Source: Ignavibacteriota bacterium
GTDB taxonomy: Bacteria > Bacteroidota > Ignavibacteria > Kapaibacteriales > UBA2268
Direction of reading: 5' to 3'
DNA: 49,894 bases
Assembly (NCBI GenBank): GCA_024636855.1
Contig: JAGXGG010000007.1
Coordinates: 1-49,894 of the forward strand
Position numbers and translations under genes: made by a program. The notes under the pieces are model-generated. The model did no database searches. It worked only from the letters and a program-made list of their open reading frames with translations, and was not told the DNA's origin. Positions 1 to 31,756 of the stretch are shown here, piece after piece. Every line of letters begins with the position of its first letter. Position 1 is the stretch's first letter.

Positions 1-18
1 GATGTGTATAAGAGACAG
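1..18. other. Sequencing adapter remnant (transposon mosaic end)
   Basis: The first 18 bases match the 19-base Tn5 mosaic-end sequence used in tagmentation libraries, minus its first A. In frame they read MCIRDR, a well-known artefactual protein start. Genomic sequence therefore begins at about base 19, and the window start is a contig end, not a biological boundary. Confidence 0.95.
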
Positions 19-19
19 G

Positions 20-1153
20 TCCACTATTAATGCAAAAATTGATGTTTTCTTTTGTAAATCAACAGATAGAGGAGAGACATTCACTAATCCAATTGTAGTA
101 ACAGACGATGAATCGAAATATAATCAAGATTTTCCTGTTATGACGGTAGATGATAATGGTGGGATTCATATAGCGGCTATTGATAATCGAAATTTGGAAC
201 AAGGTAAAGTAAACTTTGCCGAGTTAATGTACACTCATTCTACAGATGAAGGTGAGAGTTGGTCAAAAAATAAAATTATCTCTAAAATAAACAGTGATGC
301 TGGTGCTTGTGAATGTTGTTGGCCTGCTATTGATACATTTACTGACAATAATGGTAAAGTCACGGTTTCAATACTTTATAGAAGTAATATAAATAATCTA
401 CGTGTAAGCTACTTAGCTAATAGTTTTGATGGGGGTCAGAATTTTGAAACACCTATTAGGATTGGTTTCAAAGATTGGATTATAAATTCTTGCCCTGTCT
501 CAGGACCATCTATATTCTATGATAATAATGGAATACTTCATACGACTTATAAAACAATTTCTGACATATACTATAGTTATTATGATGTTAAAAATAACAG
601 TGAAAGAAATGAGGTTTATATAGCTGGAGGTAGTAATCCCTTTGTTACTTATAATCATACTAATGATCAAATCTATATTACTTATGAGAAATATGAGTCT
701 GATAAACTTCAGACAAGGATAGTTTCTTCTACTGACAAAGTGAGTTTCAGTCCTTCAAAGTTATTATTAAATAATGATTTAAATTTATCAATGTTTAATT
801 GTAAACTCATAGAAAATAAAAATAGAATGAATGTTATTTGGGAGGATGATAGTGAAGGGATTGAGAAAAATAGTATTTGGTTCGCAGAGTATAATAGTAC
901 TCAAAGTAATATAGAAACCAATTATGAAAAACCTACTTTCGAATATTTGTCAAACGGCGATTTATTAGTTAATACAAAAGAAAGGAATTCGATTATTACA
1001 ATTTCAGATTTAATGGGTAGGGTAATATATAAACAAGAAGCAATTCTGCCCACCAATGATCTAAGAATTAACCTTAATAATTATGCAAGTAGAATATTTA
1101 TATGTAATGTAAGGAATAGAAATTATAATACAAGCCAACTTATTATAAAATAG
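20..1153 (+). CDS. Asp-box propeller protein with CxCC motif and T9SS sorting domain, 5'-truncated
   Basis: This is the C-terminal part of a secreted beta-propeller protein; the beginning is lost at the contig edge and any start inside the adapter is false. Three Asp-box motifs of the sialidase/BNR type are visible (STDRGETF, STDEGESW, SFDGGQNF). A cysteine cluster ACECCWP (codons at about 308-319) and a later CPVSGP (about 491) are not typical of sialidases and could bind metal or form disulfides. The last 70 or so residues form a T9SS type A sorting domain, with an ISDLMGRVIY strand and a terminal SQLIIK, so the protein is probably exported across the outer membrane. It lies 39 bases upstream of a Cys-rich protein and the MbnP/MbnH genes on the same strand, which suggests a copper-related role rather than glycan cleavage. 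That role is inference; the fold and sorting domain are well supported. Confidence 0.8.
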   Translation, partial: STINAKIDVFFCKSTDRGETFTNPIVVTDDESKYNQDFPVMTVDDNGGIHIAAIDNRNLEQGKVNFAELMYTHSTDEGESWSKNKIISKINSDAGACECCWPAIDTFTDNNGKVTVSILYRSNINNLRVSYLANSFDGGQNFETPIRIGFKDWIINSCPVSGPSIFYDNNGILHTTYKTISDIYYSYYDVKNNSERNEVYIAGGSNPFVTYNHTNDQIYITYEKYESDKLQTRIVSSTDKVSFSPSKLLLNNDLNLSMFNCKLIENKNRMNVIWEDDSEGIEKNSIWFAEYNSTQSNIETNYEKPTFEYLSNGDLLVNTKERNSIITISDLMGRVIYKQEAILPTNDLRINLNNYASRIFICNVRNRNYNTSQLIIK

Positions 1154-1192
1154 AACTTTGTATTATTTGTTCTTTTTGTTATATTAGGAAAT

Positions 1193-1660
1193 ATGAGGAA
1201 TAGATTTAAAATATTATCTTTGATTATAGTAGTGATGATAATGGTTCCAGTTTTAGGGATAAACATCAACACACATATCTGTGGCCAAACTGAAGATGTC
1301 TCAAAATCTTTAGTCATACCTGGTATTCTTAATCCAAAGGAATGTAATAATTGTCACAAAGAAGTGGTAGTAGTTAAATCTTGTTGTAGTGATAAAAAGA
1401 TAGAAGTTGAAACAAACCAAGATAATAAAGCCAAGGAAAAAAATTGTTGTAAAGATATAAAAGAATATAACGGTTATGAGTATATTAACGTTCGTGCTAC
1501 CAATATTATAATAGATTATTCTGATAGTTTCTTAGTTGTAAATCGTCATGTTGTACAAATTATAACTCATGAATCCATTAACTACCAAATATTTGATAAT
1601 TCTAAGCGAAGGCCTTACCTAGTTGACATACTCTCCTTTATTTGCTTATATTTGATTTAG
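1193..1660 (+). CDS. Small Cys-rich protein, HYC_CC_PP-like
   Basis: A 155-residue protein with an N-terminal hydrophobic segment (residues 8-23), then a THICGQ motif and cysteine pairs in KECNNCHK, SCCSD and NCCKD, and a second hydrophobic stretch at the C terminus. The layout resembles the HYC_CC_PP family of Bacteroidota, small exported proteins often encoded beside TonB receptors or metal genes, although the H-x-C and final proline motifs are only approximate here. The Cys pairs suggest soft-metal binding. It starts 39 bases after the propeller gene and ends 40 bases before the first MbnP gene, so it probably belongs to the same transcription unit. The antisense frame over its first 120 bases is a shadow. 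Function is not established. Confidence 0.65.
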   Translation: MRNRFKILSLIIVVMIMVPVLGININTHICGQTEDVSKSLVIPGILNPKECNNCHKEVVVVKSCCSDKKIEVETNQDNKAKEKNCCKDIKEYNGYEYINVRATNIIIDYSDSFLVVNRHVVQIITHESINYQIFDNSKRRPYLVDILSFICLYLI

Positions 1661-1700
1661 ATAATTACTAATTTTATCAAGTAATTATTTATAAACTTAA

Positions 1701-2477
1701 ATGAGTAAAAAAATGAAATTTTACATTACCACTATTGTGATTTGCTTCGGACTATTTTTGTTTGGCTGCGAAAGCAATTCTACGAATAGTGACCCTATAA
1801 AAGAAAATGTGACTTTATCAGTTACAATGAACCATACTTTTGGTCAAGAAAATGTTGATCCTGAAGTAACTATGCACACAAATTCATCTGGTAATGAGAT
1901 TAGATTTTCTAAGCTCCATTACCTATTGACCAATTTTGTATTAGTCAATATTAGCGGTGAAGAAATAGTTTTGGATTCTGCCGCTGCTTATATAAATATG
2001 TCTGATGGTAGAGTATCATTCGAATTACCAAATATACCTGAAGATGATTATACAGAACTAAGGTTTTTACTCGGTGTTGATTCTACTACTAATCATCAAG
2101 ATCCTAATCTATTTGCGGCATCTAGTCCTCTAAATCCAATTATAAATAATCTCCATTGGGGTTGGATGGATGGATTCATATTTTGTTCTGTCGAAGGTTA
2201 CCATTATAAGGATGGACAAATGAAGGGTGCTTTTGCATATCATGTTGGTCTAGATGAGAATCTAATGAAAATCAATATCCAAAATAATTTCAAGGTTAAA
2301 AAAAGTGTTCCTTTAGAACTTAATTTTGACCTTTCTGCATATTTTGAATCTCCTCATGTTATAAATATAACTGAAAATGCACCTATAACTCACTCTGATA
2401 AAGCTGCAGACTTTGGTTTAAGTAGCAAACTAAGTGAGAATTTGCTTAATGCATTTACAATAAAAGGAGATAAATAA
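1701..2477 (+). CDS. MbnP family copper-binding lipoprotein (copy 1)
   Basis: A 258-residue lipoprotein: signal peptide with lipobox LFGC, acylated Cys at about residue 23, followed by a Ser/Asn-rich tether. The family signature LHWGW lies at residues 151-155, followed by VEG (164-166) and AYHVG (180-184). MbnP proteins bind copper at a site that depends on conversion of a conserved tryptophan to kynurenine by the partner di-haem enzyme MbnH, which is encoded next (one base between stop and start). Predicted location is the outer membrane. A second in-frame ATG at 1713 could also serve as start and would keep the signal peptide. There is no T9SS domain, unlike copy 2 (3593-4534). Family assignment is strong; the copper role is by family. 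Confidence 0.85.
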   Translation: MSKKMKFYITTIVICFGLFLFGCESNSTNSDPIKENVTLSVTMNHTFGQENVDPEVTMHTNSSGNEIRFSKLHYLLTNFVLVNISGEEIVLDSAAAYINMSDGRVSFELPNIPEDDYTELRFLLGVDSTTNHQDPNLFAASSPLNPIINNLHWGWMDGFIFCSVEGYHYKDGQMKGAFAYHVGLDENLMKINIQNNFKVKKSVPLELNFDLSAYFESPHVINITENAPITHSDKAADFGLSSKLSENLLNAFTIKGDK

Positions 2478-2478
2478 A

Positions 2479-3573
2479 ATGAGAAACCATTTAATATTTT
2501 TACTCGCAGTTCTTGTTCTAATGTCAATAGTACTTGTGTCCTGTTCCAAAGATGAGGCAACAAGCCCTACTAATGAATTCGAAACAAGACCCTATACACT
2601 GGTAATGCCTAGTAATATGCCGGCTCCTATATTACCTCAGGACAACCCATTAACCTATGAAGGTATTGCACTCGGCAAAGCTCTCTTCTTTGAGAAAATG
2701 ATGTCAAAAGATGGAACTGTCTCATGTGGGAGTTGTCATAATCAAGGCAATGCATTTACTGATAATGATAAGAAATTTTCCGAAGGTATAGAAGGTAAAA
2801 TAGGTGATAGAAATTCGATGCCTATATTCAATATGTTCTATCATACTAAAGGTTTTTTCTGGGATGGACGTGCAAAGTTACTAAGAGATCAATCTTTAGG
2901 TCCTATTGAGAATCCATTAGAAATGGGAGAAACTCTGGAGAATGTAATGAACAAATTACAAGCTGAATCTAAGTATCGCAATCTATTCTACAAAGCTTTC
3001 GGTGACTCAACTGTTAGTAGTTTGAAAATGAGTTTGGCAATGGAACAATTTATGTTGACTTTTGTCTCAGGTAATTCTAAATTTGATAAAGTAGAAAGAA
3101 GCGAAGCTCAATTCACTATGTCAGAGTTGAGAGGGAAGGAACTATTTTTCACTGAGTTCGAAACTAGTGGTGGTGCAAGAGGTGCAGATTGTTTTCATTG
3201 CCATGCTACAGCTGATTTCTCCAATCATGAATTCATGAATAATGGATTAGATTCGGAATCAGAATTTACGGATTTAGGAAGAGCAATGTTCACAAAAAGA
3301 CCAACAGACAATGCTAAATTCAAGACACCATCTTTAAGAAATGTAGCTGTTTCTGGCCCCTATATGCACGACGGCCGTTTTGCAACTTTGACAGAGGTAA
3401 TAGAACACTATAATAGTGGGATAAAAGAATCTCCAACTTTGGACGTGAATATACATGGTATCAAAGATGGTATGAATCTAACAGAACAAGAAAAGCTTGA
3501 TTTAATTGCTTTCTTGAATACGCTAACTGACGAAGTTTATCTAAACAATCAAGAATACAAAGAATCAAATTAA
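2479..3573 (+). CDS. MbnH-like di-haem c-type peroxidase lipoprotein (copy 1)
   Basis: A 364-residue member of the bacterial cytochrome c peroxidase/MauG superfamily. The signal peptide ends in the lipobox VSC (residues 20-22), giving CSKDE. Two c-haem sites are visible: CGSCH at 83-87 and CFHCH at 238-242. The conserved second-domain features are present (KTPSLRNV and GPYMHDGRFATL, around residues 284-306), where the YMHDG motif supplies the distal haem region. MbnH enzymes oxidise a tryptophan in MbnP to kynurenine. The gene starts one base after the MbnP stop, and this pairing is the main reason to call it MbnH rather than a general CcpA peroxidase. Another MbnP gene follows after 19 bases. 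It is probably periplasmic-facing or surface-anchored. Confidence 0.85.
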   Translation: MRNHLIFLLAVLVLMSIVLVSCSKDEATSPTNEFETRPYTLVMPSNMPAPILPQDNPLTYEGIALGKALFFEKMMSKDGTVSCGSCHNQGNAFTDNDKKFSEGIEGKIGDRNSMPIFNMFYHTKGFFWDGRAKLLRDQSLGPIENPLEMGETLENVMNKLQAESKYRNLFYKAFGDSTVSSLKMSLAMEQFMLTFVSGNSKFDKVERSEAQFTMSELRGKELFFTEFETSGGARGADCFHCHATADFSNHEFMNNGLDSESEFTDLGRAMFTKRPTDNAKFKTPSLRNVAVSGPYMHDGRFATLTEVIEHYNSGIKESPTLDVNIHGIKDGMNLTEQEKLDLIAFLNTLTDEVYLNNQEYKESN

Positions 3574-3592
3574 TCAATATGAGAAATAGAAA

Positions 3593-4534
3593 ATGAAAAG
3601 TTTATTATTAGCAACTATTTTAGTACTATTTACTGGCACTTTATCAGCCGCTGAAGTCAATCTTAATCTAGACTATCACGTGGATGGAAAAGAATTCAAG
3701 ATGAATCAAGAATATACAAACACAAAGGATATAAACTATAAAATTACTAGATTCGAATATTATATGTGTGGGTTAAAGTTTGACGACTTGGAGCTAGATA
3801 ATTATATATTAGCCAATGGAAACTACGAGAATTACTCACTTGGAGAGTATGATATAAATGAAATTAATAGAGTCACAATGTCTTTTGGTGTAAAAAAAGA
3901 AGATAATATCAATCAAGATCCTAATAAATATGGACCTTTGCACCCATTAGGGCCAAAAAATCCTTCTATGCATTGGGGCTGGGCAGCCGGTTATAGATTC
4001 TGGGTAGTAGAAGGAGTTGTTGACCATGATAAAGACGGTATATATGACAAATCGTTTCAATATCATATACTAGGTGACGAAGCATTTAGAACTATGTCGT
4101 TTGATGTAGACGCAGTTAGCAAAAGTGGAGTCATTGATATAAATATAGATTTTGATATACAAAAGCTACTATTACCAGTAGATATGACTAAATTTGTTGC
4201 ATACCATGATTTTTATAATAATCTGCCAGAGATAAGAGAATTTATTAATAATATCGAAGAATCAGATGTGATAACTAGTAAGACAACTAGTTCAGTTGAA
4301 ATGGCTAATAAGAGTATTGAATTATTCCCAAATCCGACTGTTAACTTTCTGAATTTGGGTTCTCAGTACTTAAATTCGAGCTATGATATTATAACAATAG
4401 ATGGTCTAACAGCACAATCTGGGACTATTAATAGCAATATAATTGAACTAAAAGACCTAACTACTGGTACATACTTTATTAGAATTAGTGATAGTAAAGG
4501 CAACATAAATACAGCTAAATTTGTTAAAAATTAA
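3593..4534 (+). CDS. MbnP family protein with T9SS sorting domain (copy 2)
   Basis: A 313-residue MbnP homologue with a normal cleavable signal peptide (MKSLLLATILVLFTGTLSAA) and no lipobox. The family motif MHWGW is at residues 126-130, followed by WVVEG (137-141) and QYHILG (156-161). After the MbnP domain (about 20-215) comes a linker and a T9SS type A domain starting near ELFPNPT (residue 246) and ending GTYFIRIS...KFVKN. This copy is therefore predicted to be secreted or anchored on the cell surface, while copy 1 is a lipoprotein. It is followed by a second MbnH gene whose start overlaps its end by 14 bases. Domain calls are firm; the two-location idea is inference. Confidence 0.85.
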   Translation: MKSLLLATILVLFTGTLSAAEVNLNLDYHVDGKEFKMNQEYTNTKDINYKITRFEYYMCGLKFDDLELDNYILANGNYENYSLGEYDINEINRVTMSFGVKKEDNINQDPNKYGPLHPLGPKNPSMHWGWAAGYRFWVVEGVVDHDKDGIYDKSFQYHILGDEAFRTMSFDVDAVSKSGVIDINIDFDIQKLLLPVDMTKFVAYHDFYNNLPEIREFINNIEESDVITSKTTSSVEMANKSIELFPNPTVNFLNLGSQYLNSSYDIITIDGLTAQSGTINSNIIELKDLTTGTYFIRISDSKGNINTAKFVKN

Positions 4535-5525
4535 ACTCAAATATTCTGTCTTACTTCTGTTGTTTCTATTCTCTTGCTCTGAAGAAAAAGAAATAGTAGC
4601 ACCTAATAAACAGGCAAACAAATATACTTTTCTAGAAAATTTTCCTCGGGAGCTACCCAAAATAGAATATCCCGAGGACAATTTACCTAATGAAGATAGA
4701 ATCCGATTAGGCAAGCTATTATTTTCGGACAAAAGATTATCTAGAACTGATGAAATATCCTGTGCCTCCTGCCATATATCTGAGTTTGCTTTTGCCGATA
4801 ATACACCAACTACAAAAGGGGTAGATGGACTGGATGGTACTAGAAATAGCGTATCATTGACGAATGTTGCTTTTCAAAAAAGGTTGCTTCGAGAAGGGGG
4901 AGTTCCTACCTTAGAAATGCAGATATTAGTCCCATTCCAAGAGCATAATGAATTTGATTTGAATATAGTAGCTGCTGCCGAGAAGTTAGGCAAAGATTCT
5001 CTATATCAGTACCTATCACAGTTAGCTTATGACAGAGATTTAGATCCATTTGTACTCACTCGTTCTATTTCTGCTTTCGAACGCACATTGATAGGGGGAG
5101 ACTCTAAATTCGATGATTATCTGAACGATAAAGCTAAATTAACTACTGAAGAAGAAAGAGGAATGGTGCTCTTTTTCTCTGATTCTCTCGCTTGTTCTAG
5201 TTGTCATTCGGGAATATTATTCACTTCACAAGAGTTCGCAAACAATGGGTTATACGAGAGCTACAAAGACAATGGTAAACAAAGATTAACTGGTCTTGAC
5301 TCAGATAATGGAGTATTCAAAATACCTTCACTTAGAAATGTAAGTAAAACAGCTCCATATATGCACGATGGTAGTATAGCAACTCTGGACGCCGTTCTAG
5401 AGCATTACGCTAGTGGCGGCAAACCCCATAGAAACAAAAGCAAATTAATAAATGGGTTTGTTCTAAAAAGCTCCGATAAGAAAGCTATCGTCGCTTTTCT
5501 GAATACTCTGACAGAAAATCAATAG
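4521..5525 (+). CDS. MbnH-like di-haem c-type peroxidase lipoprotein (copy 2)
   Basis: A 334-residue paralogue of the upstream MbnH-like gene. Start chosen is TTG at 4521, overlapping the end of the MbnP gene by 14 bases; it gives a good lipoprotein signal (KYSVLLLLFLFSC, then SEEKE), and no ATG lies between it and the lipobox. Haem motifs are CASCH (81-85) and CSSCH (225-229). The downstream IPSLRNV and APYMHDGSIATLDAV elements match copy 1 and the MbnH/CcpA family. The overlap implies translational coupling to the preceding MbnP, its likely substrate. The two MbnP-MbnH units probably arose by tandem duplication followed by divergence in anchoring of the MbnP partner. Confidence 0.83.
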   Translation: MLKIKLKYSVLLLLFLFSCSEEKEIVAPNKQANKYTFLENFPRELPKIEYPEDNLPNEDRIRLGKLLFSDKRLSRTDEISCASCHISEFAFADNTPTTKGVDGLDGTRNSVSLTNVAFQKRLLREGGVPTLEMQILVPFQEHNEFDLNIVAAAEKLGKDSLYQYLSQLAYDRDLDPFVLTRSISAFERTLIGGDSKFDDYLNDKAKLTTEEERGMVLFFSDSLACSSCHSGILFTSQEFANNGLYESYKDNGKQRLTGLDSDNGVFKIPSLRNVSKTAPYMHDGSIATLDAVLEHYASGGKPHRNKSKLINGFVLKSSDKKAIVAFLNTLTENQ

Positions 5526-5664
5526 AAAAACTTTTGAAATTACAGAGATATTTTTGGTGTTCATGTGTCTCTATAAGCAGAGGTCTTACAATTTTCTTCT
5601 CTTTACCTCTTCTAGGAAACTGCTAATAAATTTAGAAATAATAAAAATCTATTCCCAATTTTAC

Positions 5665-5672
5665 TATTTTTG
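5665..5672 (+). promoter_or_regulatory. Candidate -7 box of the membrane protein gene
   Basis: TATTTTTG fits the Bacteroidota -7 consensus TAnnTTTG and lies 26 bases before the ATG at 5699. No clear TTG/TTTG -33 element is at the expected distance, so the call is weak. Confidence 0.3.
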
Positions 5673-5698
5673 TTTTTAAACTATTTCGATTTGTGGTA

Positions 5699-6970
5699 AT
5701 GCTAAAACACAGCAAGTATAGAAATTTGATAATTTTATTTTTTCTAATTGGCTTATTTCTTCAATTGCTAGTATCATTTTCTTATTGGGTTGGTGGCGAT
5801 CAAATGCATCTACTTGAGCTAGGTATGAGACTAGTAGATGGGGGAAATCTATCAAGTTTTTCCAAACTCAAAGAAGGTGGAGGTGCAAATCTTGGTTCTC
5901 TAATGCAAATACTTGTTGCCGGGCCTTTGTTTATATGGGAAAATTTTCGGGCTCCAATGTTAGTCCCTATATTGTTTAATATAGGTGCTTACCTTATGAT
6001 TAGTAAAATAATATTTGAAAATTATCAAGATAAAGGACTATTAATATTCACGATTATTTTTTGGTTATCGCCAATCCGACTCTACAATACTGGCTTTCTA
6101 TGGGAGCCTGCTTATATATTATTACCGGCTGCTATGCACCTTTACTCAGCATATTATATGAGAAGTAAAAAATCAGCTTATTTAACTTTTATGCATATTT
6201 TCAGTCTGTTTGTGGGTCTTCAAATTCATAATTCTGTGTTAATACTTGTAATAGCTTCACTGTATCTATTGTTTTCTAGAAAAGTGAAGGTAGAGTGGAA
6301 AGGATTTGCACTAGGTCTTTTTACAGGTTTGTTATTCTTTATCCCTCTAATACTTGATGTTTTGAATAATAATTTACCCGAATCAACTAGCTCATCTGGT
6401 TATTTAGGACAAAGTCTTCTCAAAGTAGCTCCATTCTTAAAAGGTGTGCTTTATTTTGTGAAAATGACAACATTTGATATGGTAAAAGCAATTCAAGAAA
6501 CATCCTTTTGGGATGGGTCTTATAGATGGATTATGTATATTTTTCAAATTTTATCAATTAGTGTGGTAGTATTTGGTGTCTATGCTAATTATAAATATTA
6601 CCGAGGAAGTATTTTCAAAAAATGGGCCAATGACTACCAGAGTTTTTCCCCTACTAACCTTTGGTTAAAAGATTACGGTGTTAGTATATTTTGGGGATTA
6701 ATAATATCAGCTGCCTTGTCTCCTATTACACTCCAAGCTTGGATGGTATTAATCATAATCTTTGGTGCTATCTTACCTTTGCAACATCTTTTAAGTTCCT
6801 TCAGCTTCAACGAACAAAAACCAAAATTATTTATGCTAGCATTTGTTATTATTGAACTTATTATGGTGTTTACATTCTATTTTGGACAATTAAAATTCAA
6901 TAGACCTGAACAATATCCTAAGGAACTTCAAGAACAAAAGTATGAAAATTTGGAAAGACTTTTTGAGTAA
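5699..6970 (+). CDS. Polytopic membrane protein, possible GT-C glycosyltransferase
   Basis: About 423 residues with roughly ten hydrophobic segments. The ATG at 5699 is preferred over the GTG two codons upstream. After the first membrane span comes a loop with GGDQMHLLELGMRLVDGG, reminiscent of the first periplasmic loop of GT-C glycosyltransferases (ArnT/PMT type), where an Asp is catalytic. A second loop holds SPIRLYNTGFLWEPAY between spans, also typical of that fold. No close family can be named from sequence alone. It stands alone between the MbnH gene and a convergent sulfur operon. Function is unknown; a lipid-linked sugar transferase is the best guess. Confidence 0.6.
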   Translation: MLKHSKYRNLIILFFLIGLFLQLLVSFSYWVGGDQMHLLELGMRLVDGGNLSSFSKLKEGGGANLGSLMQILVAGPLFIWENFRAPMLVPILFNIGAYLMISKIIFENYQDKGLLIFTIIFWLSPIRLYNTGFLWEPAYILLPAAMHLYSAYYMRSKKSAYLTFMHIFSLFVGLQIHNSVLILVIASLYLLFSRKVKVEWKGFALGLFTGLLFFIPLILDVLNNNLPESTSSSGYLGQSLLKVAPFLKGVLYFVKMTTFDMVKAIQETSFWDGSYRWIMYIFQILSISVVVFGVYANYKYYRGSIFKKWANDYQSFSPTNLWLKDYGVSIFWGLIISAALSPITLQAWMVLIIIFGAILPLQHLLSSFSFNEQKPKLFMLAFVIIELIMVFTFYFGQLKFNRPEQYPKELQEQKYENLERLFE

Positions 6971-7091: not shown

Positions 7092-7406
7092 TTATGAAAC
7101 ACAATTTCTTACGTTACTGTGTCCACCACCATTTATTACATTCTGAATTCCATTTTTCTCTAATATACCTTTTGCTACGCCGCTTCTAGAGCCACTTTGG
7201 CAAAAGACAATTACACCTTTCTTACCCTTGAATTTGGATAATTGATTTGGTACTGAGTCCAAAGGTATATTTACAGCTCCTTTTACGCTGCCACCATTGA
7301 ATTCTGCTGGGCTTCTCACATCTACTAAATAAGCACCTTCTTCTATTGCTTTAATCAATTCGGTATTGTCTTGTTGACCAAACATACTCTTAAATAATCC
7401 TATCAT
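7092..7406 (-). CDS. Single-domain rhodanese
   Basis: A 104-residue cytoplasmic rhodanese-like sulfurtransferase. The active-site loop is CQSGSR with the persulfide-forming Cys at residue 69; DVRSPAEF (29-36) is the usual N-terminal motif. No signal peptide is visible. Such proteins move sulfane sulfur between small thiols such as glutathione and protein acceptors. It is the last gene of a minus-strand operon, 28 bases after the persulfide dioxygenase-rhodanese fusion, so it probably supplies or takes persulfide in the same detoxification route. A C-terminal Cys (residue 102) is an additional thiol of unknown use. Confidence 0.9.
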   Translation of the reverse strand: MIGLFKSMFGQQDNTELIKAIEEGAYLVDVRSPAEFNGGSVKGAVNIPLDSVPNQLSKFKGKKGVIVFCQSGSRSGVAKGILEKNGIQNVINGGGHSNVRNCVS

Positions 7407-7434
7407 TTTTAATTCCTATTTATTGTTAATATTA

Positions 7435-8838
7435 TTAATATACTTTGCTTTGACATACGAAATCTGATTTCGGAATACTAGTTTTTGCAATGGCGTCAAA
7501 TCCACCTTCGACTTCTGTGAAGTTTCTATATCCTCTAGCTTGTAATATACTTGCAGCTATCATACTTCTGTAGCCACCTGCACAATGTACATAAAAGTGT
7601 TCTTTGGGATCAACTTCCTTTATCCAATTATTTATATAAGCTAATGGCTTACTGAATGCCTCATCAACGTGTTCTGCTTCATACTCACTTTCCTTACGGA
7701 TATCTACAACTTTGCTTTCACCGATTTTTACTTCTTGAGCAAATTGAGCTGGAGTAATTCTGTCAACAGTATCTTTTTCTTTGCCTACCCAAGCTTCAAA
7801 ACCACCCTTGAGATGACCCAATACATTATCGAATCCAACTCTACTAAGTCTAGTTATAGATTCTTCTTCTCTACCTTTATCAGAAACCAATAGTATTGGT
7901 TGATTGACATCTACTATCAATGAGCCCACCCAAGGTGCGAAATCACCATCTATTCCTATGTTTATAGATTGTGGTATAAATCCTTTTGAAAAGTCGCTAG
8001 CGTCTCTAGTGTCTAATATTAAGGCACCGCTATTCTCAGCAACAGCTTCAAAATCTTCTACTGATAGTGCGGACATTCCTTGATCCAAGACTACATCAAA
8101 ATTCTCGTAACCCTTTTTATTCATAGCTACATTCATCCCGAAATAAGCGGGAGGAGGAGTTAATCCATCAGTTACAGCTTTGACAAAGGCTTCTTTATTT
8201 GGTTGATTTAGGGCATAGTTTACCTTTTTCTGATTGCCCAGAGTATCGACCGTTTCTGTCATCATATTTTTACCACATGCTGAGCCAGCACCATGTGCGG
8301 GGTAAACAATCAAGTCATTAGGCAACGGTAAAATCTTATTGTTCAAGCTATCATAAAGCATTCCAGCTAATTCATCTTGTGTCATATCTGCTGCTTTTTG
8401 AGCTAGGTCAGGTCTCCCTACATCCCCTAAGAAAAGAGTGTCTCCACTGAAAAGAGCTGTTTCTTTTTCATTCTCATCTATTAATAGATATGAAGTACTT
8501 TCCATAGTATGCCCAGGGGTGTGAAGTACTTTTATTTTGATATCTCCAAGCTCAAAAATTTGTTCGTCTTTGGCTTCTATAGCTTCAAATTCTGGTTTTG
8601 CAGTTGGCCCATAGATAATAGGGGCGCCTGTTTGCCTACTTAAATCCAAATGTCCACTAACAAAATCTGCATGGAAATGCGTCTCGAAAATGTATTTTAA
8701 CTTTACGCTATCCTTTTCGAGTCTTTCCATATATGGCTTTGTCTCGCGCAATGGATCTATTATTGCTGCTTCGCCATTAGATGTGATGTAGTATGCACCT
8801 TGTGCTAAACATCCTGTATATATTTGTTCTATATTCAT
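7435..8838 (-). CDS. Persulfide dioxygenase-rhodanese fusion (MBL fold)
   Basis: A 467-residue cytoplasmic protein: an N-terminal metallo-beta-lactamase domain of the ETHE1/persulfide dioxygenase type (about 1-230) and two rhodanese modules (about 255-355 and 360-455). By alignment with ETHE1 the mononuclear iron ligands should be His54 (in THFHADF), His110 (HTPGH) and Asp133 (SGDTLF); Phe59 replaces the last His of the hydrolase motif HxHxDH, as expected for an enzyme needing only one metal. The first rhodanese module has Ser319 (VSDKGREE) where the catalytic Cys should be and is probably structural; the second has Cys419 in HCAGGYRS. The reaction is oxidation of glutathione-type persulfide to sulfite plus thiol. 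It is co-transcribed with a TauE/SafE exporter that could remove the sulfite. Confidence 0.93.
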   Translation of the reverse strand: MNIEQIYTGCLAQGAYYITSNGEAAIIDPLRETKPYMERLEKDSVKLKYIFETHFHADFVSGHLDLSRQTGAPIIYGPTAKPEFEAIEAKDEQIFELGDIKIKVLHTPGHTMESTSYLLIDENEKETALFSGDTLFLGDVGRPDLAQKAADMTQDELAGMLYDSLNNKILPLPNDLIVYPAHGAGSACGKNMMTETVDTLGNQKKVNYALNQPNKEAFVKAVTDGLTPPPAYFGMNVAMNKKGYENFDVVLDQGMSALSVEDFEAVAENSGALILDTRDASDFSKGFIPQSINIGIDGDFAPWVGSLIVDVNQPILLVSDKGREEESITRLSRVGFDNVLGHLKGGFEAWVGKEKDTVDRITPAQFAQEVKIGESKVVDIRKESEYEAEHVDEAFSKPLAYINNWIKEVDPKEHFYVHCAGGYRSMIAASILQARGYRNFTEVEGGFDAIAKTSIPKSDFVCQSKVY

Positions 8839-8864
8839 TTAATTAATCTCATTTATTATTGTTA

Positions 8865-9659
8865 TTATCTAATTATAAATTCCATAAGGAATATGAATAG
8901 GGCCATTATTATTATGAAATAACCAAATCCTTTTTTCAATTTCTTACCATCTATCACTTTGCTTAGTGATACTCCTATGAAAATACCTGCTATTGCTATA
9001 GACGTAAATAGAATTAAAAAATTCCAATCTATATCTAATGTTAAAGCATCACTTAAAAAGAAACCTAGTAATGATTTCAGCGCGATTATAATAAGTGATG
9101 TTCCTATTGCTTTTTTAATCTCTAAATTTGCTAATACTACTAAAGCTGGTATAATTAGGAAACCTCCACCTGCACCTACAAATCCTGTTATACCACCTAC
9201 AACAAGACCTTCTGCTATTATCAAAGGGTAATTGTATTTCACTTCACCCGTTCCACCTTTTCTTTCCTTAGTAGAAAGCATAGAGTAAGCCGCCCATATC
9301 ATTAGAACAGAGAATACTCCGAACATCATCATCCTACGTGTAAAGATAAATGTCTCTATACTAAATAATTCTTCTGGTAAAGCAGGAATCACATAATGTC
9401 TTATAAGCCAAACACCAACAATTGCAGGTAGACCGAAAACCATTGCTGTTTTCCAATCTACGTTTTTATTCTTATTTTGTCTTAGTCCACCTACCAAAGA
9501 TGATGCTCCAACTATAAACAAGGAATATGAAGTTGCATAAGTTTCATTCAATGTAAATAAGTATGCTAGCACAGGTACTGCAAGTATAGATCCTCCGCCG
9601 CCTATTAGGCCAAGAGAAGTCCCTATTACTAATGCCATAAAATACCCTAAAATCTCCAT
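8865..9659 (-). CDS. TauE/SafE family sulfite exporter-like permease
   Basis: A 264-residue membrane protein with about eight spans and the two inverted family repeats, each starting with a Gly-rich motif: GLIGGGGSILAVPVL near residue 18 and GFVGAGGGFLIIPALV near 160. TauE/SafE proteins move sulfite, sulfoacetate or related organosulfur anions across the inner membrane. Gene order (26 bases before the persulfide dioxygenase gene, 60 bases after arsR) suggests export of the sulfite made by the dioxygenase, although uptake of thiosulfate cannot be excluded. The 90-residue plus-strand frame inside it is a shadow. Confidence 0.9.
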   Translation of the reverse strand: MEILGYFMALVIGTSLGLIGGGGSILAVPVLAYLFTLNETYATSYSLFIVGASSLVGGLRQNKNKNVDWKTAMVFGLPAIVGVWLIRHYVIPALPEELFSIETFIFTRRMMMFGVFSVLMIWAAYSMLSTKERKGGTGEVKYNYPLIIAEGLVVGGITGFVGAGGGFLIIPALVVLANLEIKKAIGTSLIIIALKSLLGFFLSDALTLDIDWNFLILFTSIAIAGIFIGVSLSKVIDGKKLKKGFGYFIIIMALFIFLMEFIIR

Positions 9660-9719
9660 TCACATACCGTTTTATTGTTTATCATTTGTTAAATTGTTCA
9701 ACTATTGGCTCAAAAAAAA

Positions 9720-10031
9720 TTAAAGAAATTCACAGTTCTCTACGCAATTAAATATTTTTAACAGATTCGTATCTGCAATTCTATAATATACCTGTTTACC
9801 ATCTTTCTCGGATACCAATATACCATTATCTTTCATTTTAGCTAGGTGATGCGACATCATTGATATCTCACATCCTGATTCTATCTTAGAGCAAATAGAA
9901 GAGACCGACAATTGCTCATGTTTACCCAATAACTCTAGAACTTCCAATTTTACTGGATGTGCAATGGTCTTCAAGATTTTAGCTACTTGTTCCAATCGTT
10001 TTGCTTTTATATTTTTTTCTGTATTTTTCAT
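9720..10031 (-). CDS. ArsR/SmtB family repressor, putative sulfide/persulfide sensor
   Basis: A 103-residue winged-helix regulator; the recognition helix region is CEISMMSHHLAKMKDNGIL (54-72). Four cysteines are present: C47, C54, C96 and C100. Sulfur-sensing members of the family (BigR/SqrR) use two Cys that form a tetrasulfide or disulfide, one in the DNA-binding half and one near the C terminus, so pairs such as C47/C96 or C54/C100 could act this way. Metal sensing is the alternative. It heads the sulfur operon and has an inverted repeat inside its own promoter (10038-10063), implying autoregulation. The start ATG lies only four bases from the -7 box, so the mRNA may be leaderless. Confidence 0.88.
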   Translation of the reverse strand: MKNTEKNIKAKRLEQVAKILKTIAHPVKLEVLELLGKHEQLSVSSICSKIESGCEISMMSHHLAKMKDNGILVSEKDGKQVYYRIADTNLLKIFNCVENCEFL

Positions 10032-27070: not shown

Positions 27071-28144
27071 ATGAAGAAAATAATCTTACTAATAACGACA
27101 ATGAGCTTATTTCTTATTTCATGTAGTGATGATAGCTCGACTAATCCAGATAACAGTATACCAGAGACTTATAGCTTTGCCAATGTTAATTACTCTGGCC
27201 AAACTGCTAGATTGGAAATGACAAAAGAAATCGATGCCATTATCCAAGAGGCAAAGACTAATGGAACACCAATAAATACTGAAAAACTAAATGCAATGCT
27301 AAGAAATGAAGGCAATCCATTTGCATCAACTGAATTGAATGAAAGTGGTAAAGATATCTACTCGAAAATAGATCCAAGTAAAACATCCTTTTTCATAGAT
27401 TTAATAACAGATATGGGGACTATCAATACTACTGATGTAGCAGAAGATGGTAAAGGTGGCTTAGTTACTTCGGCTGATGGTACGAGATCATACTTAGTAA
27501 ACTCTAAAGGCTGGGATTATGGAGAGATTATGGAAAAAGGACTAATGGGTGCTTTGATGTTTCACCAAGTTGTAGGGTATACTAGCGAAAATAAAATAGG
27601 TTCTGCAGTTGATAATAAAACAATAGTACCCGGAGAAGGAACTGCTATGCAACACCATTGGGATGAGGCATTCGGTTATTTCGGGGCGACAAAAGAATTT
27701 CCTAAATCAACTGAAGGTATTGACTTCGTCGCAAAATATGCTAACGCTAGAGATGCATTAGTTGGACTGAATGATATGCTAATGAAAAATGGCTATCTGA
27801 AAGGTAGAGCAGCTATCAATAACAGTGATGATGATGCGAAATGGGAAGCCATTGAAGAAATCAGAAAAGGATGGGAGCTTACTTTTGTTACTACTACTAT
27901 TCACTACTTAAATTCAGCAAAAAAAAATTATACAGATGATGCTATGAGAACTCATACTCTCTCTGAGTGTTATGGTTTCCTATGGTCGATACAGTTCAAT
28001 CCTGATAAAAATGGCTCAATTTACCTAGATGCTTTAAACAGATTAGGAGATAATTTCTGGACTATAACTATTGCTGATATAGATGCTACAAAAGAGATTT
28101 TGGCTAAAGGATACAATCTAGAAAACATAGCGAATGATTTGTAA
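27071..28144 (+). CDS. DUF4856 lipoprotein (copy 1)
   Basis: A 357-residue lipoprotein with signal MKKIILLITTMSLFLISC and tether CSDDSSTN, which fits the acidic surface-export signal of Bacteroidota lipoproteins. The remainder matches DUF4856: a PETYSFANVNYSGQTARLEM start, a helical body, GLMGALMFHQV, HHWDEAFGYFGA (about 197-208), LKGRAAIN and FLWSIQFNPD near the end. DUF4856 proteins are regularly encoded beside imelysin-like proteins in Bacteroidota, and the two may share a helical-bundle architecture. The His-rich HHWDEAFGYFGA region is a candidate metal site; no reaction is known. First gene of a five-gene unit. Confidence 0.82.
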   Translation: MKKIILLITTMSLFLISCSDDSSTNPDNSIPETYSFANVNYSGQTARLEMTKEIDAIIQEAKTNGTPINTEKLNAMLRNEGNPFASTELNESGKDIYSKIDPSKTSFFIDLITDMGTINTTDVAEDGKGGLVTSADGTRSYLVNSKGWDYGEIMEKGLMGALMFHQVVGYTSENKIGSAVDNKTIVPGEGTAMQHHWDEAFGYFGATKEFPKSTEGIDFVAKYANARDALVGLNDMLMKNGYLKGRAAINNSDDDAKWEAIEEIRKGWELTFVTTTIHYLNSAKKNYTDDAMRTHTLSECYGFLWSIQFNPDKNGSIYLDALNRLGDNFWTITIADIDATKEILAKGYNLENIANDL

Positions 28145-28155
28145 TAATTAATTAT

Positions 28156-28200
28156 ACCCACACTGTGTACACAGCATACATATAAGAATTATCTTAATTA
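28156..28200 (+). promoter_or_regulatory. Conserved upstream module, copy 2 (second DUF4856 gene)
   Basis: ACCCACACTGTGTACACAG (28156-28174) and CTTAATTA (28193-28200) repeat the module seen at 26964-27008 at the same internal spacing. A partial -7-like TTAAATTG follows at 28203-28210. It may give the downstream four genes their own promoter. Confidence 0.4.
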
Positions 28201-28253
28201 TGTTAAATTGTAAATTAGAAGATTAGGAAATAATAAAAAGCAAAAGGTTCAAC

Positions 28254-29345
28254 ATGAAAAAAATGATTACGATTCTATATCTGTTAAGTATATTGCTTAT
28301 ATCATGCAGTGATGACAAGCCAACTATAACGGACCCAAACCCCAAAACTTATGAGATACCTGAAACTTATAATTTTGACAATGTTGACTATTCGAGCCAA
28401 TTAATACAGATGGAAATGCTTGAAGAAATTAAGAGTTTGATAACTAATGCTATCAATAATAGAGTAGCGATTAGTGCTGGTGTACTTAATAGTATGTACA
28501 AGAACACTGGAACACCTTTCGTAAATCCAGATCTGAACTCGAGTAAAGAAAGTTTATATACTGTTACCGATCAACTAAGAACATCTTTCTTTGAATTTTA
28601 TTTTGCGGATATCAATAATGCTTCTACTACTAGAGATGCTGCAAATAACAAAAAAGGAATACTTGTAACTAATGATAAATCTCAAACTTTTTTAGTGGAT
28701 TCAGTAGGTAAAGAATACATAGAAATGATTGAGAAAGGTTTAATGGGAGCTTTATTTTTCTATCAGGTGGCACAAGTATATACTTCCGATGCTAAAATAG
28801 GAAAAAATGTAGATAATATCACTGTGATTGATGGTAAAGGTACTCAGATGCAAAACAATTGGGATCAGGCATTTGGATACTTTGGTGCAACTCTAGATTT
28901 CCCAATAATGAATAATGATATAAAGTATGTCGCAAAATTATCGGATGATAGAAATGAGTTACTGAACACAAACAAGTTACTTATGAAAGATGGTTTTCTG
29001 AAAGGAAGAGCGGCTATTAATAATAACGACAGTACAGGAAAATATGAAGCAATAAAAAGCATCAGAACTAATTGGGAGTTAGTGCTTGCTGCGTCTGCAG
29101 TTCATTATCTAAAATCAGCCAAAACAAATTTTGATGATGTTGCATTGAAACATCATTACCTTACAGATGCATGGATTTTACTTTGGTCTATCCAATTCAA
29201 TCCAGAAAGCAATGGGTTTTTCTACGAAAACGCTCAAGCTGAAATAGGTACAAACTTCTGGAATACTAATCCTGAACAAATAGATAAGGCTATAGATATT
29301 TTAGTAAAAGCATATAAACTAGAAGGTGTAAAAGATGCTCTTTAA
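28254..29345 (+). CDS. DUF4856 lipoprotein (copy 2)
   Basis: A 363-residue paralogue of the preceding gene: lipobox LLISC followed by SDDKPT, the PETYNFDNVDYSSQLIQMEM start, GLMGALFFYQV, NNWDQAFGYFGA (the HH of copy 1 is NN here), LKGRAAIN and LLWSIQFNPE. Sequence similarity to copy 1 runs end to end, so this is a tandem duplication with clear divergence. Loss of the two histidines before WDxAFGYFGA may mean different ligands or a non-binding partner. Its stop overlaps the imelysin-like start by 11 bases. Confidence 0.82.
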   Translation: MKKMITILYLLSILLISCSDDKPTITDPNPKTYEIPETYNFDNVDYSSQLIQMEMLEEIKSLITNAINNRVAISAGVLNSMYKNTGTPFVNPDLNSSKESLYTVTDQLRTSFFEFYFADINNASTTRDAANNKKGILVTNDKSQTFLVDSVGKEYIEMIEKGLMGALFFYQVAQVYTSDAKIGKNVDNITVIDGKGTQMQNNWDQAFGYFGATLDFPIMNNDIKYVAKLSDDRNELLNTNKLLMKDGFLKGRAAINNNDSTGKYEAIKSIRTNWELVLAASAVHYLKSAKTNFDDVALKHHYLTDAWILLWSIQFNPESNGFFYENAQAEIGTNFWNTNPEQIDKAIDILVKAYKLEGVKDAL

Positions 29346-30426
29346 AAAACTTGTTTTATTAATTTTACTTAGTTCCTTTACTTTATCATGCAGTGATGAT
29401 AATACTGGTAACCCAAAAATAGAAATTGATAAAAAAGCACTATTAACTAATTATGCTGATAATCTTATTATACCTGCTTTCGAGGATTTATACCAAAAAT
29501 CAAATACATTGAACGAGCGATTCGGTGAGCTGAAACTAGAATACTCCGAACAGCAATTCAACAAAGTTCGTCAAGCTTTTTCTGACCTACGTAATAGTTG
29601 GCAGTTTTGCTCAGCTTATGGCTTTGGTCCTGCTGAAGATGTAGTATTGAGACAGTCACTCAATACATTCCCAACAGATACTATCAAAATAAAGTCAAAT
29701 ATAGAATCTGGTAGCTATTCATTAGTAACCTCTGCAAACTTCAAAGCTAAAGGTTTTCCTGCACTTGATTATTTGCTTTTTAATGTGAATAACCAAACGC
29801 AAGAGGCGGTATTTACTGATACAAAAGTCCTGCAATATTTGGAAGATATTATAAACGATATAAAAACTAATGTTGATTATGTGAGAAATGAATGGCAAAC
29901 TTATAGAGATGATTTTATTAGTAAAACTGGTAATGATGCAGGTAGTTCGCTTTCACTCTTTATAAATGAATTTGTTAAAGATTATGAGTTAGCTAAAAGA
30001 GCTAAGGTAGGTTTCCCATTAGGTGTTTCACTAAGCGATGTGTTACCATATCATTTCGAAGCACCTTATTCGTTGAATTCTTCTAGGTTACTTGGATTCA
30101 ATCTGCAATCATACAGAACTATACTTACTGGTCCAGAGAATAACGATTTGACTAAGACCGATAATCTATATGAGTATCTTCAAGAATTATCAGCAACTAG
30201 AGGTGATGCTTTACTAGCCGATGTGATACTTAGTGAGTTAGATGAGACCATCGGACTATTAAATAAAATGGATATTCCCTTCAGAAAATCACTTGAACTT
30301 TCTCCTGAAAAAGCAAAGATAGAGGCATTATATAAGAATATGCAAGAAAGTGTTGTGTTATTAAAAACCGATATGGTTTCTGCAATGGGAATACTCATAA
30401 ACTATCAAGACAATGATGGTGATTAA
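29335..30426 (+). CDS. Imelysin-like (M75) lipoprotein
   Basis: A 363-residue helical lipoprotein; lipobox TLSC then SDDNTG. It fits the imelysin family: WQFCSAYGFGPAEDVVLRQSLNTFP (about 87-111), GFPALDYLLF (about 142-151) and a second half with LGVSLSDVLPYHFEAPYS. Classic imelysins carry GxHxxE for metal binding; here the matching site reads GFPALD, so the His is missing and Asp replaces Glu. Imelysin-like proteins act in iron uptake (EfeO and algal or bacterial ICMP proteins). It overlaps both neighbours, by 11 and 14 bases, indicating tight translational coupling. Predicted to be on the outer membrane surface. Confidence 0.85.
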   Translation: MLFKKLVLLILLSSFTLSCSDDNTGNPKIEIDKKALLTNYADNLIIPAFEDLYQKSNTLNERFGELKLEYSEQQFNKVRQAFSDLRNSWQFCSAYGFGPAEDVVLRQSLNTFPTDTIKIKSNIESGSYSLVTSANFKAKGFPALDYLLFNVNNQTQEAVFTDTKVLQYLEDIINDIKTNVDYVRNEWQTYRDDFISKTGNDAGSSLSLFINEFVKDYELAKRAKVGFPLGVSLSDVLPYHFEAPYSLNSSRLLGFNLQSYRTILTGPENNDLTKTDNLYEYLQELSATRGDALLADVILSELDETIGLLNKMDIPFRKSLELSPEKAKIEALYKNMQESVVLLKTDMVSAMGILINYQDNDGD

Positions 30427-31756
30427 TACCAAGTTCAGGGATTTACTTTTCAAAGAAGTTAGACCTGAACCTTTAGCATTCTTCCGAATAATCTTCGGAT
30501 TGCTAATGACCTTTTCTACCATTCGTTATATTGCTAAAGGTTGGATAACTGATTTTTTTATCCGGCCAGAGTATTACTTCAAATATCCTTATTTCCATTG
30601 GGTACAAAATCCAGGCGAAGTGGGGATGTATTTTTTATTCGGTACTTTGCTACTCAGTAGTATTCTTATAACTATCGGCTACAAATATCGGTTTGCAGCA
30701 ATCGCCTTCCTTTTATCGTTTCTCTATATTGAGTTAATAGATATTACCTACTATCTCAATCATTACTATTTCGTGTCCTTGATAGGATTTATTATGGTGT
30801 TTCTACCTGCTAGTAAATGCTTTTCTGTAGATGCTTTACAAAAGGGGGAGACCGAGTCAATCCCTAATTGGACTATCCTAATTATCAAATTTCAAGTAGC
30901 TGTAGTATATATTTTCGCTGGATTAGCAAAGCTTAATTATGATTGGCTGATTGACGCTATGCCTTTGTCTATATGGCTCCCCGCTAACTCACATCTGCCA
31001 TTAGTAGGTGGATTGATGAAACTCAAATTCACAGCTTATTTATTTAGTTGGTTCGGAGCAATTTACGATTTATTCATAGTTCTATTCCTTATTTATCCTA
31101 AAACTAGAAAAATAGCATATTTCTTTGTGATTGTCTTCCATTTGTCAACCACTGTGCTATTCAATATTGGTGTTTTCCCTTATGTTATGATAGCGATGAC
31201 TACTATATACTTCGATAAGTCATTCCAAATAAATGTAGTAAAACGACTAAAGAAATTGTCTACCTACAAGACCAATATAGTAACTACACATAGTTACAGA
31301 CCTAGTATGAAATCAGTTGTTAGTACATCTATCCTTATTTTTACAATCATCCAGTTGGCAATTCCGCTAAGGTTTTTGCTATACAAGGGTGACTTGTTCT
31401 GGAAAGAAGAAGGATATCGGTTCTCGTGGCGAGTTATGTTGATGGAAAAAGCTGGTACAGTATTTTTCACTGTAGTTGACAAAGAATCTAACAACAGAAT
31501 AGAAATTGTTAATTCGGACTATCTAACTCCCAATCAAGAAAAGCAAATGTCAACACAGCCCGATTTGATACTTCAATTCGTGAAGATAATCGAAGAGGAT
31601 TTTGCTAAAAGAGGTAAAACCGATATTGAAATTTATGCCGATTCATTTGTAAAGCTGAACGGAGATTTCAGCAAAAGATATATAAATAATAAAGTTGATT
31701 TGACTAAAAAGTCATATCACGATGATTTAGATACTTGGATATTACCGAATAATTGA
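30413..31756 (+). CDS. HTTM domain protein (vitamin-K gamma-carboxylase-like)
   Basis: A 447-residue integral membrane protein of the HTTM/VKGC family. Signature features: PEPLAFFRIIFGLLM in the first span, the DITYYLNHYY segment (110-119), FQVAVVYIFAGLAKLNYDWL (160-179), where Lys173 sits at the place of the catalytic base of human gamma-carboxylase, and FHLSTTVLFNIGVFPYVMI (242-260), which closely follows the VKGC FHxxxxxLFxIGxFPYVML motif. The C terminus (about 320-440) is a soluble domain. Human VKGC turns Glu into gamma-carboxyglutamate using reduced vitamin K; reactions of bacterial HTTM proteins are mostly unknown. Here it is coupled to surface lipoproteins and a TonB receptor, which suggests modification of one of them, but this is inference. 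Confidence 0.87.
   Translation: MMVINTKFRDLLFKEVRPEPLAFFRIIFGLLMTFSTIRYIAKGWITDFFIRPEYYFKYPYFHWVQNPGEVGMYFLFGTLLLSSILITIGYKYRFAAIAFLLSFLYIELIDITYYLNHYYFVSLIGFIMVFLPASKCFSVDALQKGETESIPNWTILIIKFQVAVVYIFAGLAKLNYDWLIDAMPLSIWLPANSHLPLVGGLMKLKFTAYLFSWFGAIYDLFIVLFLIYPKTRKIAYFFVIVFHLSTTVLFNIGVFPYVMIAMTTIYFDKSFQINVVKRLKKLSTYKTNIVTTHSYRPSMKSVVSTSILIFTIIQLAIPLRFLLYKGDLFWKEEGYRFSWRVMLMEKAGTVFFTVVDKESNNRIEIVNSDYLTPNQEKQMSTQPDLILQFVKIIEEDFAKRGKTDIEIYADSFVKLNGDFSKRYINNKVDLTKKSYHDDLDTWILPNN

Follow-up and report, generated by a model that had tools for sequence, protein, structure and literature searches.

A candidate copper-handling module with two MbnH paralogues, and a widespread CxCC beta-propeller family, in an Ignavibacteriota bacterium

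MbnP is a protein in which a tryptophan is turned into a copper-binding kynurenine, and several described systems (the MbnP/MbnH pairs of TIGR04052/TIGR04039 and GenProp0940, MopE-SACCP, and CorA-CorB) have in common that an MbnP-type protein is encoded next to a di-heme MauG-like enzyme. Two such pairs stand in a row of six genes at the start of contig JAGXGG010000007.1 of an Ignavibacteriota bacterium (assembly GCA_024636855.1; positions 1-49,894, the whole stretch that was analysed and that is called the window here), and that six-gene locus is the subject of this report. The window proteins resemble the described pairs in their conserved tryptophans and in lying apart from a methanobactin operon, as such pairs do far more generally according to PMC3621798. 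They differ in falling under the NCBIfam cut-offs, in comprising two MbnH paralogues in one locus, in the type IX secretion system (T9SS) tail carried by the second MbnP (MbnP2), and in the presence alongside them of a small cysteine-rich protein of the HYC_CC_PP family (CysR) and of a beta-propeller with a CxCC motif.

A second point of comparison is provided by the CruR and CutF leaders (DUF2946 and relatives), small cysteine proteins with a C-terminal proline motif that head copper operons and that are described in PMC9426467 and PMC9973294 as sensing copper during their synthesis; CruR operons are stated there to include MbnPH-like genes (PMC9426467), and CutF-like proteins to come from Bacteroidota in 40% of cases by normalised count and in 19% otherwise (PMC9973294). 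Unlike these leaders, the window protein is 155 amino acids long, ends in RRP rather than PP, and is not the first gene in its locus. The BtuG-type surface propeller lipoproteins that accompany TonB receptors share with 12 CxCC loci, by gene order alone, the combination of surface propeller and receptor, whereas the window module has no receptor beside it, and the CxCC propeller is set apart by its cysteine signature and copper context. Sialidase and BNR-repeat propellers, PLL-type lectins and CylK share with it only the fold and BNR similarity, at 9-17% identity in the matches, and its conserved residues are instead CxCC, R, RD, W and CPxxG. The copper-dependent methanethiol oxidase SBP56 is reportedly also a propeller found near SCO and MauG-type genes; no kinship to the window propeller is claimed. 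To our knowledge, extracytoplasmic copper handling in Bacteroidota is poorly known.

On the strength of sequence comparison, we lean towards the view that the six genes form a module that handles copper at the cell envelope and surface, and protection under copper stress seems to us a somewhat likelier role than uptake. The sequence-only reading had described six genes on one strand with short gaps or overlaps, and the coordinates of the open reading frames (20-5525; Table 1) bear this out: the first four gaps measure 39, 40, 1 and 19 bases, and the last gene pair overlaps by 14. The order CysR-MbnP1-MbnH1-MbnP2-MbnH2 is kept in three comparison genomes (G000 denotes the window's own genome, other G-numbers comparison genomes, and L-numbers loci taken from genomes), namely G001 (L053, where a contig end truncates CysR), G002 (L054) and G006 (L055), the last belonging to another genus, and the arrangement is therefore not due to chance. 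Within the window's genus, the propeller gene lies before CysR in the window, G001 and G003.

The evidence that carries the copper assignment comes chiefly from the surroundings of propeller genes. Strict copper markers (multicopper oxidase, P-type ATPase, HMA, SCO, MbnP/H, HYC and PP-leader) were found within five genes of 42 of 98 CxCC loci (27/58 in a fresh sample and 15/40 in the first), as compared with 1 of 20 stretches picked at random from those genomes and none of 17 related BNR propellers that lack CxCC (Fisher p 8e-4 and 2e-4, respectively), and within three genes of 37, 1 and 0 loci in the same order (p 3e-3 and 1e-3); these p values are rough, because the statistics ignore kinship, several genomes contribute more than one locus, the marker seeds came from the same loci, and the ATPase filter was loose. 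The markers within five genes were PP-leader (16 loci), HMA motif (13), multicopper oxidase (12), P-type ATPase (11), MbnP and MbnH (6 each), HMA-MauE (5), HYC (4) and SCO (1), the HYC count being too low inasmuch as the local HYC profile missed the HYC_CC_PP proteins of L179, L186 and L213. Individual loci are consistent with this tally: in G001 the propeller gene is divergent from a group comprising HYC_CC_PP, CusA/CzcA, a copper ATPase and CusB/HMBD, and in L153 the order is CusB-like, CusA/CzcA, propeller, CueO-like oxidase, a 360-amino-acid protein and a CopZ-like protein (the last two labels under cut-offs).

Propeller genes were further encountered in 63 plasmid records of Roseobacter-type genera. 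In two of the three plasmids inspected (Phaeobacter inhibens pP66_b and a Pseudosulfitobacter plasmid) the propeller ends a copper-resistance gene group annotated with copper or heavy-metal ATPase, TolC, copper oxidase, copper-binding protein, plastocyanin and cytochrome c, to which the Pseudosulfitobacter plasmid adds cueR; in the third, Marinovum pMaD4, putative multicopper oxidases lie 3 to 7 kb from the propeller, and all three propellers contain CxCC and CPVNG. Among the 15 plasmid rows listed, 14 label the protein 'sialidase family protein'. The L199-type propeller and the T9SS-tailed MbnP of L186 each gave one weak plasmid match. It had been suggested from the window alone that the propeller may be an unrecognised part of MbnP/MbnH copper systems; its enrichment in copper loci upholds the copper side of that suggestion, but with MbnP within five genes at only 6 of 98 loci, the propeller belongs to copper loci in general. 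A link of this propeller to copper was not found in the open-licence PMC literature, and we regard the propeller as a promising candidate for a copper protein that has so far gone unrecognised.

The window propeller scores below the Pfam cut-offs for both BNR_2 (27.8 bits, cut-off 31.4) and the T9SS tail (22 bits, cut-off 27). With a first profile, based on six sequences of the family, relatives turned up at E 1e-15 in 46 of 395 genomes of the phylum. From these matches 52 stretches were sampled, of which 35 were picked because the match passed the motif region and 17 because it stopped short; CxCC was present in 35/35 of the former and 0/17 of the latter, a split partly built in by that choice. 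In an alignment of 41 sequences (40 loci and the window), C-x-C-C, two arginines, a tryptophan, and the C, P and G of CPxxG are invariant, and an aspartate follows the second arginine in 38, the window protein having valine there. A wider profile matched in 72 of 395 genomes from the class to which G174 belongs, and a fresh sample of 60 new loci yielded 58 with a propeller open reading frame, all 58 with CxCC and CPxx[GA]. A scan of a named genome collection returned 17 relatives (6 from Bacteroidetes, Ignavibacteria, Chlorobiota or unplaced, near the query, and 11 from other phyla); with the query's own locus excluded, both motifs occur in one reading frame in 10 of 16, two of which repeat earlier loci.

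The relative in G001 is 483 amino acids long. An AlphaFold2 model of a 474-amino-acid relative, built with 10 sequences, reached a mean pLDDT (predicted local distance difference test) of 80.3 and a pTM (predicted template modelling score) of 0.80. Seven inner strands can be read from its DSSP line, which fits its best structural matches, CylK (Z 34.1, root-mean-square deviation 3.2, 349 residues aligned) and the seven-bladed PLL lectins (Z 28-29); in Foldseek the best matches are sialidases (E 5e-13 to one). In the model, CECC (207-210) lies just ahead of the strand 213-216 and CPTSG (264-268) just ahead of the strand 270-273, so that the two motifs occupy equivalent places of neighbouring blades, and their cysteines may form one metal site.

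Complete sets of the same components recur in other families. In two members of one genus of family f59 (L179 of G691 and L186 of G431), HYC_CC_PP, a further gene, propeller, MbnP, MbnH2 and MbnH1 follow one another on one strand, and in L213 (G612, family f67) the order, again on one strand, is HYC_CC_PP, MbnP, MbnH2, MbnH1, a redoxin-like gene and propeller. In L179, L186 and L213, respectively, HYC_CC_PP scores 50.3, 46.8 and 35.4 bits (cut-off 28) and MbnP 97.5, 89.5 and 110.4 bits (cut-off 27); the MbnH proteins of L179 and L213 have TIGR04039 as best match, below its cut-off, and those of L186 were found by a home-made profile only. Upstream of the set in L186 lie an RND efflux adaptor (TIGR01730, 116.4 bits against a cut-off of 94.9) and an RND permease recognised by eye, and L179 contains HMA proteins and, by eye, a multicopper-oxidase-like protein. 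The propeller of L209 is divergent from two MbnP and two MbnH genes, and that of L218 is followed by an MbnP (44.0 bits). MbnP occurs within six genes of the propeller at 5 of the 58 fresh loci, in four families, where a hand estimate of chance, which takes a positive genome to have around two MbnP among roughly 3,500 genes, gives fewer than one. The co-occurrence of CxCC propeller and HYC_CC_PP with MbnP/MbnH beyond this genome, on which the sequence-only reading had staked its proposal, was accordingly found.

Both MbnP proteins pass the Pfam cut-off for PF20243 (111.7 bits for MbnP1 and 79.2 for MbnP2, cut-off 27) and fall below that of the equivalog TIGR04052 (37.6 and 22.3 bits, cut-off 140), and the tryptophans of WxW, both invariant in the 22 rows of the MbnP alignment, are placed by profile alignment on MAWNWQAG of 7l6g. 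Similarly, MbnH1 and MbnH2 pass PF03150 (CCP_MauG; 178.2 and 142.4 bits, cut-off 25.6), contain two CxxCH motifs each (CGSCH and CFHCH; CASCH and CSSCH), and have TIGR04039 as best NCBIfam match at 235.2 and 247.2 bits, under its cut-off of 362.85; the best Protein Data Bank match of MbnH2 is 6e1c, 'Di-heme enzyme'. Among 60 near relatives, counting the genome itself, 15 carry PF20243, as do 298 of 395 genomes from the class of G174, in the same phylum. Because of this frequency, and because the pair is reported to be conserved far beyond methanobactin producers (PMC3621798), an MbnP-MbnH pair that stands apart from methanobactin genes is nothing unusual in the phylum and no finding by itself. 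The absence of methanobactin genes, which had been singled out as distinctive, thus loses its weight as a trait. MbnB was not found in G000 (96.4% complete), which holds a single match to PF05114 (MbnB/TglH/ChrH), on another contig and of HvfB type (385.1 bits for HvfB, cut-off 360, versus 61.3 for MbnB, cut-off 325), so that a methanobactin-type locus was rejected; a search for MbnC gave no match in G000, but none in the control genomes either.

A tree of 36 MbnH proteins places the two of the window in separate clades, H1 (9 rows, support 99/96) and H2 (13 rows, 99/97), and a recent tandem duplication of one pair was rejected on those grounds. One H1 and one H2 member are found per dual locus in the window, G002, G006, G058, G036, G612, G431 and G691; in L209 (G714) one MbnH falls in H2 and the other next to H1 on an unstarred branch, and stretches of G045 and G059 have an H2 member alone. 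This recurrence across families argues that the dual-MbnH set is old rather than a recent duplication. The two parallel pairs noted at the outset are thus present, but as two old MbnH paralogues rather than as a doubled pair. A single MbnP accompanies both MbnH in G036, G431, G691 and G612 (the G058 contig starts inside MbnP), and a T9SS tail was confirmed on the single MbnP of L179, L186 and L213. In a tree of 33 MbnP rows, the MbnP1 clade (100/97) is seen only in the window's family, the deeper branches being modestly supported. Single MbnP-MbnH pairs with a small gene (153-166 amino acids) just upstream, and with MbnH of a separate clade, were observed at L040, L041, L063, L064 and L066, often preceded by a further small gene and what we take to be a sigma-factor-like gene.

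The CysR protein of the window passes the cut-off for HYC_CC_PP (NF047658) at 33.6 bits against 28, and its orthologues stand at the fringe of that family (28 in L053, 25.3 in L054, no match in L055); eight aligned members share HxC, one more cysteine, and CC. The C-terminal PP is present in L055, L051, L179, L186 and the second copy of L047, and is replaced by RRP or GRP in the window protein and its relatives of the same genus. Measured by the description of CutF-like leaders in PMC9973294 (fewer than 150 residues, PP in the last 15, and a stem-loop between leader and next gene), the window protein departs in length and C-terminus and agrees in its stem-loop. A stem of 9 to 11 base pairs after the stop codon has a z score of -2.3 in the window, -3.4 in G003, -1.6 in G001 (L053) and 0.2 in G002, and is absent in L047 and different in L055. 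Stems of at least 8 pairs follow 13 of 23 leader-like genes versus 123 of 474 other genes (Mann-Whitney on stem length, p 4e-4, a test weakened by the mixed group of leaders), and PP-ended leaders lie at most three genes upstream of 4 of 58 propellers versus 1 of 269 other large genes. On sequence grounds, HYC_CC_PP appears to resemble a nascent copper sensor of the CruR/CutF type; the family was not found in the open-licence PMC literature. Elsewhere in G000, at L256 (contig C49, 2362-13315), a PP-ended HYC_CC_PP gene lies 31 bases ahead of CusA/CzcA, followed by a copper P-type ATPase and, by eye, an HMBD-type adaptor.

In the mechanism that we propose, both MbnH enzymes would oxidise a tryptophan of WxW in the MbnP proteins to create copper sites, MbnP2 and the propeller would be exported by the T9SS and bind copper extracellularly, the propeller doing so through CxCC and the cysteine of CPxxG at equivalent places of two neighbouring blades, and the HYC_CC_PP protein would tune expression to copper, perhaps as a nascent-chain sensor. 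It is tentatively proposed, beyond this, that the CxCC-CPxxG propeller represents a new extracytoplasmic copper protein family, whose four cysteines would make up a site at the mouth of a ring of seven blades, distributed across Bacteroidota and Roseobacter plasmids, and that with the dual-MbnH, kynurenine-making MbnP module and the HYC_CC_PP nascent-chain sensor it may constitute an undescribed surface copper system. Several observations, in addition to the roughness of the marker statistics, weigh against the copper module. No Cus, copper ATPase or oxidase gene lies beside it in the window, such genes being on contigs C49 and C22; G002 and G006, the latter of another genus, have no propeller next to the module; and in the close relative G003 (L048, G003:C22, 1919-3369) the propeller is broken by a stop codon, its match falling in two pieces. 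No strict marker lies within five genes of 56 of the 98 CxCC loci, and the WxW pattern is unmatched in 3 of 33 MbnP rows, including one of L209 and that of L218, the two of the window matching. The RND permease after the G002 module is of the multidrug type, and the label 'CusA' was rejected for it.

The alternative that survives best, although we consider it doubtful, is copper uptake, in which the propeller and MbnP would catch scarce copper at the surface and pass it to a TonB receptor, much as BtuG does for BtuB, with copper repressing the operon through a CruR-like leader. At 12 loci a PP-ended small cysteine protein, a TonB receptor and the propeller follow on one strand (L101, with one small reading frame between, L102, L103, L104, L111, L112, L117 and L130, and, in the fresh sample, L167, L172, L174 and L187), an order that suits uptake in that branch of the family and that likewise counts against a protective module; in L102 it is followed by SCO. 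CruR, moreover, heads an operon with a copper-importing TonB-dependent transporter, and CruR-headed operons include MbnPH-like genes, according to PMC9426467 and PMC12914433. The window module itself has no TonB receptor beside it, the nearest one recognised by eye lying at 31753-34167, while the set or part of it adjoins efflux or HMA genes in L179, L186 and L047; TonB receptors anywhere within five genes were no clearly enriched feature, at 14 of 40 propeller loci versus 5 of 17 controls. The PP ends at the 12 loci are often FHPP or FRPP, and those scanned (L101, L103, L167 and L172) matched no Pfam or NCBIfam family.

It is unlikely that the propeller is a redox or assembly factor that oxidises thiols or matures cuproenzymes, its cysteines acting together with a redoxin partner, and that MbnP and MbnH are separate tenants of the locus. 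A redoxin-like cluster does occur at six fresh-sample loci, at five of them directly upstream of the propeller on the same strand, Pfam Redoxin/AhpC stands beside the propeller in L126 and L129, and the gene between MbnH1 and propeller in L213 is redoxin-like by eye; the window module, however, is without a redoxin gene, the larger neighbour cluster (cluster 0) is probably a mixture joined through T9SS tails, and two of the three inspected plasmids have a copper-resistance group without a redoxin label. That the propeller is a sialidase-like glycan protein whose place next to copper genes is coincidental, as its BNR_2 similarity, Foldseek matches and plasmid labels might suggest, is very improbable in view of the copper-marker enrichment at CxCC loci, the nature of its invariant residues (Cys, Arg, Trp, Pro and Gly) and the recurrence of the full set in other families.

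Table 1. Features at the start of the window, with the evidence for each.
Feature	Positions	Strand	Evidence
Adapter-like sequence, non-genomic	1-18		Contig start at base 1; appearance of the sequence
CxCC beta-propeller, weak T9SS tail, 5' end missing	20-1153	+	Profile scans, alignment; full-length relative modelled as propeller
CECC motif	308-319	+	C-x-C-C invariant in 41/41 aligned, window included
CPVSGP motif	491-508	+	C, P, G of CPxxG invariant in 41/41
Small Cys-rich protein (CysR), HYC_CC_PP family; C-terminus RRPYLVDILSFICLYLI, no PP	1193-1660	+	NCBIfam scan, alignment
AT-rich stem-loop right after HYC_CC_PP stop	1661-1688	+	Similar stem in G001 (L053), G002, G003; none in L047
MbnP1, lipoprotein-like by eye; WGW motif at 2157-2165	1701-2477	+	Pfam scan, alignment, tree
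MbnH1, di-heme MauG/CCP-type, clade H1	2479-3573	+	Pfam and NCBIfam scans, tree
MbnP2, T9SS sorting tail, HWGW motif	3593-4534	+	Pfam and NCBIfam scans, alignment, tree
MbnH2, di-heme MauG/CCP-type, clade H2; TTG start overlapping MbnP2	4521-5525	+	Pfam and NCBIfam scans, tree

The window begins at the start of contig C100 of G000, and its first 18 bases are presumably a Nextera/Tn5 mosaic end; for both reasons the window propeller lacks its N-terminal part. The same bases give rise, at base 2, to a spurious start codon (translation MCIRDR). No Rfam family matched in positions 1-5700. Further along the window, positions 7092-10031 encode what we take to be a rhodanese, a rhodanese-metallo-beta-lactamase, a TSUP-like transporter and an ArsR-like regulator, together resembling a sulfide module, and positions 27071-34167 presumably encode two paralogous lipoprotein-like proteins, an imelysin-like protein, an HTTM-like protein and a TonB receptor in a row. 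On other contigs of G000, L255 (C43, 5915-8380) has in a row a small EGKCG-repeat protein, an HvfB-type MNIO maturase, a 250-amino-acid protein and a DoxX-like protein, which we take to be an operon of the bufferin/HvfA type for a ribosomally synthesised and post-translationally modified peptide, and L257 (C22, 7099-13923) encodes a multicopper oxidase (scanned), an HMA-like protein, a CxxCH protein, an HMA-bearing P-type ATPase-like protein and an HMA-bearing AraC-like regulator.

Should the propeller prove to bind copper, there would be a role to test for many genes that are currently annotated as 'sialidase family protein' or as hypothetical. It would also become possible to examine within a single operon what MbnP/MbnH do outside methanobactin producers, and HYC_CC_PP would be a candidate for the form that copper-sensing leader proteins take in Bacteroidota.

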